A stretch of 64,000 bases of DNA, from contig NZ_CP015596.1 of NCBI RefSeq assembly GCF_001644575.1, positions 4,340,001 to 4,404,000 of the forward strand, read 5' to 3'. This DNA comes from Mycobacterium adipatum (GTDB lineage Bacteria > Actinomycetota > Actinomycetes > Mycobacteriales > Mycobacteriaceae). The position numbers were made by a program, and so were the translations under genes. The notes beneath the pieces were generated by a model. It had not been told where the DNA came from and searched no databases. It saw only the letters and a program-made list of their open reading frames with translations. Positions 31,655 through 41,058 of this stretch are shown here, in pieces (within the stretch, counting starts at the first letter, position 1; the number at the start of each line of letters is the position of its first letter).

Positions 31655-31739
31655 TAGAAGTCCCAGTCCTCGTCCTCGGTGACCACGGCCTTGCCGATCA
31701 CGTAGCTCGAGCCCGACCCGGAGAAGAAGTCGTGGTTCT
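31655..31739 (-). repeat. att-like direct repeat, left copy (displaced nrdF2 3' end)
   Basis: Encodes [19 protein letters not shown] then TEDEDWDF, the last 28 residues of NrdF2, but with no gene body upstream. The first 53 bp (31655-31707) are identical to 40085-40137. The remaining 32 bp differ at only three bases (31708, 31717, 31735), all synonymous third codon positions. Homology stops abruptly at 31740. The adjoining stop is TAG here and TAA in the right copy. Confidence 0.92.
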
Positions 31740-31853
31740 GCACAGCACCCTGGTCAGGGACTCGATACCATCGCTCACCTGGAAATTCTCGTATCTGCTC
31801 ATACCTCTAGGAACCCCGTTTTGCCGGACAAATGTGGGCAAAATAAGGGCGAG

Positions 31854-32843
31854 TTAACCCCGGAAGGGGATCGGTGATGCCCTCACCACGGAGGGGTCAT
31901 GGCCGTTCGTCTCTAGCAGCTGCTTGGCTGCGGTCACTCGGAGCGGCTGATCCGGACTCGGTCCGACGACCAAATCGTCGATCGTGCGGGTGGGCCTCGG
32001 AATTCCAGCTTCTTCCTTCGCTGCGATCCAGGGCGGACCAGCCGTCGGATTCACCGCGATCGACAGGAACGGGAGGACACCAAACCGACCAGTTCGAAAC
32101 TCTGCAGGCATCGACATCCGGGTGTTGTTCGGAGCGTGATACCAGATCATTCGCCACTCCTCCTCGTCCTTGAATCCCATGTCCTTGAACCGCGCCATCT
32201 TCGCAACGGTTTCCCAGAGCGCCCCGAAGTTCGCACTTATGCCGGGGACAGGGCTGCCCGGTTGCAGAGTCTGCGCCAGGCGATCAGCCTCTCGAATTGC
32301 TTCGTTCTCTTTGTAGAACACCCGTCGCGGTGGCCACATCAGCGACGGCGGTTCGCCGTTGATCGGCCCCAGAGGTGACTGGGTCACCGGCAGGGCGAAG
32401 GTGAAGTGGTCCAACGTCCGTCTGGCAATGCCAATTGCGTAGCCGCCGGTACCACCGGCATAGCCTCGCCATTGACTTAGTTCATCGCTCTCACCTGAGA
32501 AACATGCCGCGAACACTTGAACTGGGTCACCGAGATAGCCGCTAACTTCTAACGTCTTGGCGAGTTGGTCCAGCAGTTCGGACCGGTCTCTGGGCGTACT
32601 GGGGTTCTTCGCGACTTCGCGGAACCGCCTCGCGAAAATCTCCCCTGCGTGGCGCAGCTCGGCGCGGTCATTCATGAACCGCACGTCCGACGCAAGGAAC
32701 TTGATTGCACCGGTGAAGTCCACCCCCGCGTCGACGTACACCTTGGGAAAGTTCGGGCTGGCCGCGATGCCCATGAGTCCATCAGCGTCGGTGTAGTGAT
32801 AGAGAATCGGCGGCATCGAGTCGTCCGTGGCGGTCACACTCAA
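31854..32843 (-). CDS. DUF2971 family protein (island cargo)
   Basis: A 329-residue cytoplasmic protein. Diagnostic DUF2971 features are LYHYTDADGLMGI near the N-terminus, KFLASDVRFMNDRAELRHAGEIF, and VFAACFSGESDELSQWRGYAGGTGGYAIGI around residues 108-138. A later element KDEEEWRMIWYH is also usual. The molecular function of the family is not established; members are frequent on mobile DNA and near phage-defence genes. It is the first gene inside the left att repeat. An internal ATG at codon 10 (MPPILYHY) is an alternative start. Codon use is less GC-rich than the chromosome outside. Confidence 0.8.
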   Translation of the reverse strand: MSVTATDDSMPPILYHYTDADGLMGIAASPNFPKVYVDAGVDFTGAIKFLASDVRFMNDRAELRHAGEIFARRFREVAKNPSTPRDRSELLDQLAKTLEVSGYLGDPVQVFAACFSGESDELSQWRGYAGGTGGYAIGIARRTLDHFTFALPVTQSPLGPINGEPPSLMWPPRRVFYKENEAIREADRLAQTLQPGSPVPGISANFGALWETVAKMARFKDMGFKDEEEWRMIWYHAPNNTRMSMPAEFRTGRFGVLPFLSIAVNPTAGPPWIAAKEEAGIPRPTRTIDDLVVGPSPDQPLRVTAAKQLLETNGHDPSVVRASPIPFRG

Positions 32844-33088
32844 ATTCTCGGCGACTCGTCCACATCAGCACACGCGGCGCGCTGGGAAGGAATGTCTCAG
32901 ACCCAGTGCTGAACCTGACGATGAGCTTGGCGTGTTCGTCGAGCTGCTGGCCATCGAAGTACATCAGCAATTGACCTCGGAATATTTGTGACTATGCCGA
33001 CGCAGACGCGGATCGATCCCCCAGCTGAGTGCTTAATCCGTAGGCTCGGCCGATTCCAGCTCTTTAAGTAGGTAGCGGCCAAAGGGAT
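32844..33088. other. Gap between DUF2971 gene and IS3 element
   Basis: 245 bp with no convincing gene. A short minus-strand frame (32782-32970, MLMYFDGQQLDEHAKLIVRF at its start) overlaps the DUF2971 start and could be a gene remnant, but I recognise no family. This gap must hold the promoter of the DUF2971 gene. Confidence 0.4.
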
Positions 33089-33129
33089 TGGGACTGCCCC
33101 GAGTTCAGTTGACTCGCGGGGTGTGAATT

Positions 33130-39371: not shown

Positions 39372-39605
39372 ATGTCTTACTCCGAAAAGACCACCACGTG
39401 GCAGCGGGAACGCGCCCGTGTGGCTGGAATGTCATCTCGGCCCAATCGCGCCCCGGACGACCCCGATCTAGTAGCGGCACGCCGCAACATGCGCGCCCTC
39501 AAGCTGGAAGCCGACATCCTCAAGGTGCTGGCTGGCGAACCCGCCCTGAACGAGGAGCAGCGCAACCACATTGCGGAGATGCTGCGCGCCGGGGATTCCC
39601 TGTGA
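39372..39605 (+). CDS. Small phage-type protein upstream of the excisionase
   Basis: A 77-residue basic/helical protein: MSYSEKTTTWQRERARVAGM, then DDPDLVAARRNMRALKLEADILKVLAGEPALNEEQRNHIAEML. Similar small proteins commonly precede excisionase-like genes on mycobacterial integrative elements, as far as I recall. Its stop overlaps the excisionase GTG (TGTGA), indicating coupling. Function is unknown. Confidence 0.6.
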   Translation: MSYSEKTTTWQRERARVAGMSSRPNRAPDDPDLVAARRNMRALKLEADILKVLAGEPALNEEQRNHIAEMLRAGDSL

Positions 39606-39733
39606 CCGGCCTGGCCACAGCCCGCGAGGTGGCCGACTACCTGCGGACGACGCCGAATCAACTGAACCGCTTGCGGTATGAGGGCAGCGGCCCCGCCTAT
39701 CGCACCCGCCACGTCGTCTCCATCACTGCATAG
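39602..39733 (+). pseudogene. Excisionase (HTH_17 type) remnant, C-terminally truncated
   Basis: Forty-three codons remain: VTGLATAREVADYLRTTPNQL is the MerR/excisionase helix-turn-helix. It then reads RLRYEGSGPAYRT before turning into antisense integrase sequence and stopping. A complete excisionase would continue with a wing and a DxxxWL helix. The break falls at about 39697-39704. Confidence 0.72.
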
Positions 39734-39960
39734 CCTGACGGCTTCAGATGGCCCTTCTGGCGCTCGAGCCAGGCCGTGCCGAGGCCGTCCACGGTGGTAC
39801 GGGCGTCGGACGGATTGACGTACTCGCCCCGCATCTTGGAGACCTCGACCGTGTTGGCGAACCGTTCGGCGTCGCGCTTTGTCCGAAACCCGCGCTTATC
39901 GGTCTGCCGGTTGTCCGGGGTCCGGTACCGCTTGCCCTGCTTGGTCTCGTAAGCCGCCAC
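39697..39960 (-). pseudogene. Phage-type tyrosine integrase remnant (N-terminal arm-binding domain only)
   Basis: Eighty-seven residues: MAAYETKQGKRYRTPDNRQTD begins the arm-type DNA-binding domain, continuing RGFRTKRDAERFANTVEVSK and GEYVNPSDARTTVDGLGTAWL, then a core-binding-domain start KPSGYAVMETTWRVR before a stop. The catalytic R-H-R-Y domain (about 250 residues) is missing. The gene starts 125 bp from the right att repeat, the expected place for the integrase of an element integrated there. Loss of the catalytic domain makes it non-functional. Confidence 0.82.
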
Positions 39961-40083
39961 GACTGCCGTGCCGCCAGCGTAGAGAAATGTGGGCAGAAGC
40001 TCCGCACGAGGTTGCGAAAGCTAGCAAGAGGGCGGACCGTTTCCAGTCCACCCTCCGCTCAAATATTGCGCTGAACAGGCACT

Positions 40084-41058
40084 TTAGAAGTCCCAGTCCT
40101 CGTCCTCGGTGACCACGGCCTTGCCGATCACGTAGCTGGAGCCCGAGCCGGAGAAGAAGTCGTGATTCTCGTCGGCGTTGGGGCTCAGCGCGGACAGGAT
40201 CGCCGGGTTGACGTCGGTCTCGTCCTTGGGGAACAACGCCTCATACCCGAGATTCATCAGGGCCTTGTTGGCGTTGTAGCGCAGGAACTTCTTGACGTCC
40301 TCGGACAGGCCGACCCCGTCGTAGAGGTCCTGGGTGTATTCGACCTCGTTGTCGTAGAGCTCGAAGAGCAGCTCGTAGGTGTAGTCCTTGAGCTCCTGCT
40401 TACGGGCGTCGTCGACCAGCGCCAGGCCCTTCTGGAACTTGTAGCCGATGTAGTAGCCGTGCACGGCCTCGTCGCGGATGATCAGCCGGATCATGTCGGC
40501 GGTGTTGGTCAGCTTGGCGCGGCTGGACCAGTACATCGGCAGGTAGAAGCCGGAGTAGAACAGGAAGCTCTCCAGCAGCGTGGAGGCCACCTTGCGCTTG
40601 AGCGGGTCGTCACCCTTGTAGAAGTCCATCACGATCTGCGCCTTGCGCTGCAGGTTCGGGTTCTCCTCCGACCAGCGGAAGGCCTCGTCGATCTCGGCCG
40701 TGGAGCACAGCGTGGAGAAGATGTTGCTGTAGCTCTTGGCGTGCACCGACTCCATGAACGCGATGTTGGTGTAGACGGCTTCCTCGTGCGGGGTCAGCGC
40801 GTCGGGGATCAGGCTGACCGCACCGACGGTGCCCTGGATGGTGTCCAGCAGGGTCAGGCCGGTGAACACCCGCATGGTGAGCTGCTTCTCGTGCTCGTTC
40901 AGGGTGCCCCAGGACGGGATGTCGTTGGACACCGGCACCTTCTCGGGCAGCCAGAAGTTGCCCGTCAGCCGCTCCCACACCTCGGCATCTTTGTCGTCCT
41001 GAAGACGGTTCCAGTTGATGGCCGAGACGCGGTCGATCAGCTTCATTCCATCGGACAC
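40084..41058 (-). CDS. nrdF2: Class Ib ribonucleotide reductase small subunit
   Basis: NrdF holds the dimetal-tyrosyl radical cofactor that drives reduction of ribonucleotides by NrdE. Metal ligands and radical Tyr are intact: [17 protein letters not shown] (Glu-x2-His and the Tyr near residue 110) and [15 protein letters not shown]. The conserved C-terminal tail TEDEDWDF docks to NrdE. The GTG at 41058 gives 324 residues, the length of M. tuberculosis NrdF2; a GTG at 41076 and an ATG at 41046 are alternatives. The last 28 codons are the right copy of the att repeat, so this end may be element-supplied. NrdR-like boxes lie upstream. Confidence 0.96.
40085..40169 (-). repeat. att-like direct repeat, right copy (functional nrdF2 3' end)
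   Basis: The same 85 bp as 31655-31739, here in frame with the complete nrdF2 gene. The 53 bp nearest the stop are identical between copies and would be the crossover core. Confidence 0.92.

Follow-up and report, generated by a model that had tools for sequence, protein, structure and literature searches.

The nrdF locus and the block beside it

The stretch of the Mycobacterium adipatum genome analysed here (NZ_CP015596.1, positions 4,340,001 to 4,404,000; 64,000 nt, hereafter the window) contains nrdF, the gene of the class Ib ribonucleotide reductase (RNR) small subunit, and a second copy of the 3′ end of that gene. The block between the two copies, 31655-40084, is very probably the decayed remnant of a tyrosine-integrase element inserted at the nrdF 3′ end. 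The copies form a direct repeat of 85 nt (31655-31739 and 40085-40169; 96% identical, 8430 nt from start to start), consisting of 27 codons and two stop-codon bases of nrdF. A first-pass annotation of this DNA had placed the last 28 codons at both ends of a block of ~8.4 kb; the duplication was borne out, its extent is slightly shorter. The stop codons are unlike, TAA at the end attached to the gene and TAG at the displaced end, and the repeat therefore stops one base before the gene end. A search of the whole 6.05-Mb genome (2 contigs) with nrdF returned the gene, the piece at 31655-31739 and nothing else, which rules out chance. The gene was also the only match to PF00268, making it the single class I RNR small-subunit gene of the genome. 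In mycobacteria nrdF is essential, and the NrdF tail has a role in binding the large subunit. The attached copy has the conserved tail in full and closes an open frame with a stop, indicating that the coding end was restored.

Three relatives with one nrdF-end match each showed an empty site, as the first-pass annotation had expected of a strain without the element, with the left flank joined straight to nrdF. In G081 (comparison genomes are cited as G, loci as L), the sequence of 31641-31739 continues unbroken into that of nrdF at 40085-41182; in G177 it is continuous from 29692 to 31739, nrdF end included, and G159 is alike. By eye, the DNA past the displaced stop is like nrdF-downstream DNA of G177, and that past the attached stop is like the island DNA in G120 and G381, which makes the left copy native and the right copy element-borne. 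The close relative G120 (nrdF protein 99.7%) has both element ends (31566-31769 at 93%, 40023-41213 at 95%) around a different interior of ~1.5 kb. Because both junctions are shared and the interiors are unlike, the two loci are most simply explained by one insertion that was inherited and decayed in two ways. Elsewhere, in G186 (L178, 15277-15894) and G197 (L267, 749-1380), ~620-630 bp not alignable to the window lie between nrdF and the native downstream gene; these stretches are perhaps older scars without a recognisable nrdF end. The region at 23.3-31.65 kb of the window was considered as a second insert on account of the genes to its left, which we take to resemble ctaD, fecB and adhC. 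This was rejected, since G120 and G186 are collinear over ~16-31 kb and the region is thus native in the clade.

Foreign content of the block, claimed earlier, was found in the form of IS3- and IS21-type insertion sequence (IS) transposase genes, a DUF2971 gene and a low GC fraction (0.55-0.59 at 37001-39000 versus 0.61-0.72 per kb outside the island). The integrase (int) fragment noted 125 bp from the right copy was likewise confirmed. It is 80% identical to residues 1-103, the N-terminal quarter only, of the intact integrase of Mycobacterium sp. GA-1199 (G113). Its match to Arm-DNA-bind_4 (E 2.4e-4, 21.1 bits) is below the cut-off of 22.3, and the Pfam Phage_integrase catalytic domain, present in the integrases of G113, G150 and G381, was not found in it. 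The xis-like remnant shares 48% identity over 27 aa with an open reading frame (ORF) adjoining the G255 integrase. Because int and the xis-like gene are truncated and IS elements have entered, the element is unlikely to excise by itself and, from its sequence, looks dead. PADLOC gave no defence match in the three window cargo proteins scanned.

An arm-type-like site lies on the island side of each copy (Table 1), and the same motif was found ~89-112 bp from both ends of the G113 and G381 islands, often twice at 11-bp spacing. Such repeats would be candidate binding sites of Int. The stretch 40000-40084 folds at -39 kcal/mol (z -3.65; 0/200 shuffles as low), and its hairpin may terminate transcription; the consensus scan gave no terminator at the hairpin because it has no T run. 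The int gene is co-directional with nrdF in the window, G113, G381 and G368. Expression of int by read-through from nrdF was considered; it is unsupported in the window, where the strong hairpin lies between the two genes, and possible in G381, where the hairpin is absent.

Table 1. Features of the block and the adjoining nrdF gene (window coordinates)
Feature	Position	Strand	Basis or remark
Displaced attachment (att) copy: original nrdF 3′ end, native stop TAG	31655..31739	-	repeat; DNA to its left like nrdF-downstream DNA of empty-site G177
Arm-type-like site TGCCCACAT within TTTTGCCCACAT, 93 bp island-side of displaced copy	31832..31840	-	one of only two in 64 kb
Cargo gene with DUF2971 domain	31854..32843	-	7.9e-6; phrog_1762
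IS3-type transposase pair	33130..34289	-	rve 8.7e-25, HTH_Tnp_1 3.5e-6
IS21-type element (transposase and IstB genes)	34394..36946	-	IstB_IS21 8.8e-41, rve; inverted arms 34394-34447 / 36893-36946
Cargo gene, 405 aa, without family match	37425..38642	+	family searches
Cargo gene, 182 aa, without family match above cut-off	38654..39202	+	family searches
Small ORF, 77 aa, upstream of xis-like remnant	39372..39605	+	18/29 residues identical to ORF near G255 integrase; no Pfam match
xis-like helix-turn-helix remnant, overlapping into int remnant	39602..39733	+	HTH_17 E 5.8e-4, below curated cut-off
Tyrosine integrase remnant, N-terminal part only, without catalytic domain	39697..39960	-	Arm-DNA-bind_4; likeness to G113 integrase
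Arm-type-like site TGCCCACAT, 98 bp island-side of attached copy	39987..39995	-	one of only two in 64 kb
Terminator-like hairpin directly after nrdF stop, in element DNA	40023..40059	-	folding of 40000-40084
Attached att copy: element-supplied nrdF 3′ end, stop TAA	40085..40169	-	repeat; DNA past stop like G120/G381 island DNA
nrdF, class Ib RNR small subunit, intact, 330 aa, host gene of the chromosomal site (attB)	40084..41076	-	Pfam PF00268 (Ribonuc_red_sm) 1.6e-96

Intact islands and their integrase family

When 248 genomes were searched with the window int fragment, G113 (85%, ORF of 410 aa) and G150 (72%, ORF of 388 aa) were recovered, both flanked by nrdF ends. In G113 the integrase ORF lies 100 bp after nrdF and the second nrdF end is 16,567 bp away; the spacing of nrdF ends in the integrase-bearing islands is 16.6 kb in G113, 18.5 kb in G150 and 22.1 kb in G381. 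These three provide the duplicated nrdF ends with a full adjacent integrase that had been proposed as a check, and the duplication, far from being unrelated to an integrase, accompanies one integrase family. The G113 integrase was then used to search 392 Mycobacterium genomes, with matches in 95 of them at E 1e-80. G113 itself, G381, G368, G150, G267 and G255 gave the six best (68-100%), and in the first five the intact integrase stands beside nrdF. The 30 best matches of the 95 genomes were examined at the locus level. Among them, 25 loci are not beside nrdF (L275 and L309-L332, G255 included): 20 have a tRNA gene within ~200 bp of the int 3′ end, one (L330) has a tRNA gene ~590 bp away, and four have none. 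L275 belongs to the M. adipatum genome itself (C1:2974799-2975875); its intact integrase is 55% identical to that of G113 and adjoins tRNA-Leu(CAA), and the locus is probably a second, tRNA-type island outside the window.

The G381 island carries bSEFIR (PADLOC 4.4e-66), two ApeA-HEPN proteins and a resolvase, and the G113 island an OLD/GajA-like ATPase, a phage-type helicase and a weakly primase-like gene. Beyond the second nrdF end of G381 (L179, 3353-3437) the DNA again has the look of an island junction, and the ORF at 3702-3908, judged by eye, is like an integrase piece, which hints at tandem islands at nrdF.

Occurrence in Mycobacterium, other genera and viral contigs

The 85-mer matched in 389 of 396 Mycobacterium genomes. 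Besides the window genome, 98 had two matches and were re-searched; pairs were counted by hand when the second match lay on the same contig and strand, at most 25 kb downstream of nrdF. On this basis nrdF is followed by a second nrdF end in 33/396 genomes, window included, at a spacing of ~0.7 to 22 kb. The count is probably a lower bound, as the first pass scored two candidates per genome, and some of the second matches in it are only 24-50 nt long. The attached copy ends an open nrdF frame in 32 of the 33 candidate genomes (at least 204 codons; two cut by the stretch end). G103 was dropped as a pair because its piece is not attached to an nrdF frame: at 11658-11742 of L057 there is a conserved nrdF tail without an nrdF frame on the contig, and the other match is on a second contig. 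The opposite-strand pairs of G077 and G371 proved to be whole nrdF paralogues. Also left out of the 33 were the opposite-strand pairs of G068 and G225, G071 and G361 (26-28 kb), and pairs on separate contigs in G266, G267, G368 and G382. In G378 (L066, 1333-2714), three nrdF ends, one of them inverted, were seen in 1.4 kb.

The two copies were compared in 30 of the 33 pairs (G088, G300 and G381 were out, the second end being outside the locus or out of register). The median difference from the consensus is 0 residues for attached tails (maximum 3) and 8 for displaced ones (maximum 20); a stop is missing from the expected position in four displaced pieces, which are possibly misregistered. In several displaced copies similarity begins only ~16-20 codons before the stop, indicating that elements carry unequal lengths of nrdF. 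Strand exchange would then probably take place in these last ~16-20 codons, judging by where the copies become alike.

The association extends beyond Mycobacterium. Of 445 named genome loci, 80 were examined, and in six of these the integrase adjoins nrdF: three are mycobacterial (one titled Acidobacteria, probably a binning error), two are from Microbacterium and one is from Leucobacter luti. Of 94 viral contigs, 80 were examined, and nine of these have an nrdF end beside int. Three of these, L192, L199 and L200, have only the last ~27-40 codons of nrdF (~38-40 in L199 and L200) with other ORFs beyond, and show the arm-like motif on both core sides. Away from int, L199 and L200 have genes for tail or virion proteins; L192 has genes for an anti-repressor and a repressor, which lie on the same side as int. 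Viral contigs carry the nrdF end as the attachment site of the element (attP).

In named phages, 109 records matched nrdF and 20 of them were listed; the top one of these 20, Skermania phage SPI1 (KR011061, L173), was rejected as an attP carrier because it has a whole nrdF gene. Short attP matches may well occur among the other 89. SPI1 and other actinophages have whole nrdF genes, and recombination with them could give elements an nrdF end. Integrases of the family are also present in the Gordonia phages Finkle, Gsput1 and Schmidt, and the 5-kb stretches analysed from them showed no nrdF end.

In a quick tree of 161 integrases (163 minus two duplicates; support by the Shimodaira-Hasegawa-like approximate likelihood ratio test, SH-aLRT, only), 4 changes are needed to account for the 16 nrdF-linked rows; the mean of 500 shuffles was 15.5, and none was as low. 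The nrdF-linked integrases fall into two clades separated by starred branches, one of Mycobacterium and one of Microbacterium, Leucobacter and viral rows, which we read as two independent switches to nrdF. No nrdF end was found near L191, L195 and L229, inside the Microbacteriaceae nrdF clade, where losses, other targets or contig limits are possible.

Interpretation and relation to known systems

The proposed course of events builds on what is seen directly in the sequences: the duplicated ends, empty sites, shared junctions, intact integrases in relatives, paired arm-like sites and viral contigs. The attP would have held a copy of the last nrdF codons, with arm-type-like sites (TGCCCACAT) ~95 bp off on each side, and the integrase would have recombined it with the chromosomal nrdF 3′ end, attB. 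The nrdF reading frame would have been kept, the last codons, the stop TAA and the terminator-like hairpin coming from the element, and the native end (TAG) with the native downstream DNA would have been displaced to the far side. Later, the integrase and the xis-like gene were truncated and the IS elements arrived.

Several observations weigh against this account. The window integrase is a fragment, so that its presumed activity and specificity are borrowed from relatives, and one close relative, the G255 integrase (68% identical), has no nrdF end nearby. The arm-like motif was at neither end of G150, nor at several other loci, and the 8-mer TGCCCACA was present island-side of only 7/33 attached and 11/31 displaced ends in the Mycobacterium pairs (counts that include G103). 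On the outer sides it occurs at 1/33 attached and 3/31 displaced ends. The hairpin, strong in the window, loses strength in G113 (z -2.21), and G381 has none (z 0.35). Moreover, int points towards nrdF in G150 and G267 and away from it in the window, G113, G381 and G368, and one simple attP layout is therefore insufficient; the attP halves seem to be swapped between the two orientation groups. At the same gene end the integrase points away from nrdF in L043, L063 and L093 and towards it in L044, L094, L124, L152 and L155.

Three other explanations of the block were weighed. If the nrdF end had been duplicated in tandem or by IS activity, the integrase fragment would be a bystander; two IS elements do lie inside the block, and many genomes have a spacing of 0.7-3 kb, mostly without a recognisable integrase. 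However, the end of the repeat coincides with the nrdF stop and is in register with the intact integrase-bearing islands of other species, the arm-like sites are about equally distant at both ends, and the nearest transposase gene is 1.4 kb from a repeat copy. No same-strand second match was seen within 25 kb upstream of nrdF in the 98 re-searched genomes, and the intact islands and the viral contigs with an nrdF end contradict a local duplication, which is therefore extremely improbable. The remnant could also stem from a complete prophage and not from a small satellite-like or cargo island: Gordonia phages have integrases akin to it (43-50%), and genes for tail and head proteins are present on viral contigs in which int adjoins an nrdF end. 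Against this, no virion structural gene was found among the window island ORFs scanned (eight in the Pfam scan, three in a later one), and the ORFs scanned in G113, G381 and G150 are defence or other cargo without a virion protein, so a prophage origin is unlikely, with some small chance left to it.

The block could further be the relic of an element like BreLI (Brevibacterium lanthipeptide island), an integrative conjugative element (ICE) that, in the accessible parts of PMC5719810 and PMC6579920, inserts at the 3′ end of nrdF, the class Ib RNR beta-subunit gene. Both window copies include the 12-bp BreLI repeat AGAAGTCCCAGT. On the other hand, no conjugation or lanthipeptide gene was found among the eight ORFs scanned in the decayed window island, and BreLI is given there as 96-100 kb long, which makes such an origin distinctly improbable. 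The nrdF target is thus known from BreLI, and the two ends in the window are a real attL/attR pair (the left and right junctions) of a dead tyrosine-integrase island. The first-pass annotation did not know nrdF as a target, which the published BreLI insertions correct, and its suggestion that integration is tied to deoxynucleotide (dNTP) supply found no supporting evidence: the element restores the coding end and, in the window, adds a terminator-like hairpin.

For the family as a whole, we lean towards a wider reading, in which the nrdF 3′ end corresponds, among protein genes, to the tRNA att sites of Actinobacteria and encodes a nearly invariant tail. Integrases of the tRNA type would have switched to it independently at least twice, in Mycobacterium and in Microbacteriaceae, and would serve phages, defence-carrying islands and an ICE. 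The site would be a hot spot recurrently filled and decayed (~8% of sampled Mycobacterium), where a core DNA-synthesis gene has its C-terminal codons, its stop and sometimes its terminator replaced by mobile elements time and again. The locus provides a protein-gene att site whose conservation suffices across the genus and outside it, within the one class I RNR small-subunit gene of this genome, and a place to look for mycobacterial defence islands, with bSEFIR, ApeA-like and OLD-like genes in two intact ones. As a caution, the last nrdF codons in a number of species derive from mobile elements.

The searchable literature gave no account of a mycobacterial nrdF hot spot, of its attP layout or defence cargo, or of repeated switching away from tRNA targets. 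Mycobacterial prophages and satellites like phage-inducible chromosomal islands (PICI) are similar in that elements with a tyrosine integrase (Int-Y) rebuild the 3′ end of a host gene (PMC10654092, PMC8092301, PMC9934374, PMC9434293, PMC9262239); in the accessible parts of these papers attB-8 lies in the 3′ end of a protein gene and some satellites have helicases. They differ in that the sites named there are tRNA, transfer-messenger RNA (tmRNA) or other genes, and PMC9262239 gives only tRNA sites for the Int-Y phages of M. smegmatis. The strings 'nrd' and 'ribonucleo' are absent from the five main texts, which do not cover the supplements, and an nrdF site in M. abscessus is possible. The GInts of Pseudomonas aeruginosa, as far as described in the accessible part of PMC5385486, are also islands at the end of an RNR gene, but of the alpha-subunit gene, with a ginABCD operon and in another phylum.

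BreLI shares the nrdF 3′ end as target, and its 12 bp fall inside the last 16-20 codons in which the mycobacterial copies are alike. In the same accessible text it differs in its size, its conjugation and lanthipeptide genes and its hosts, Brevibacterium and Corynebacterium casei, and its repeat is 12 bp compared with 85 bp in the window. The tRNA-targeting members of the integrase family in Actinobacteria have homologous integrases and share TGCCCACA near the int 3′ end. On either strand this 8-mer occurs within 150 bp of that end in 46/115 family loci, nrdF-linked ones included, versus 1/115 control stretches. Every tRNA gene within ~300 bp of the int 3′ end is convergent with int (60 of the 80 named genome loci; a further 30 loci). 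These family members target the 3′ end of a tRNA gene, whereas the nrdF islands are a case of integrases of that family using a protein gene with the arm-site spacing kept.

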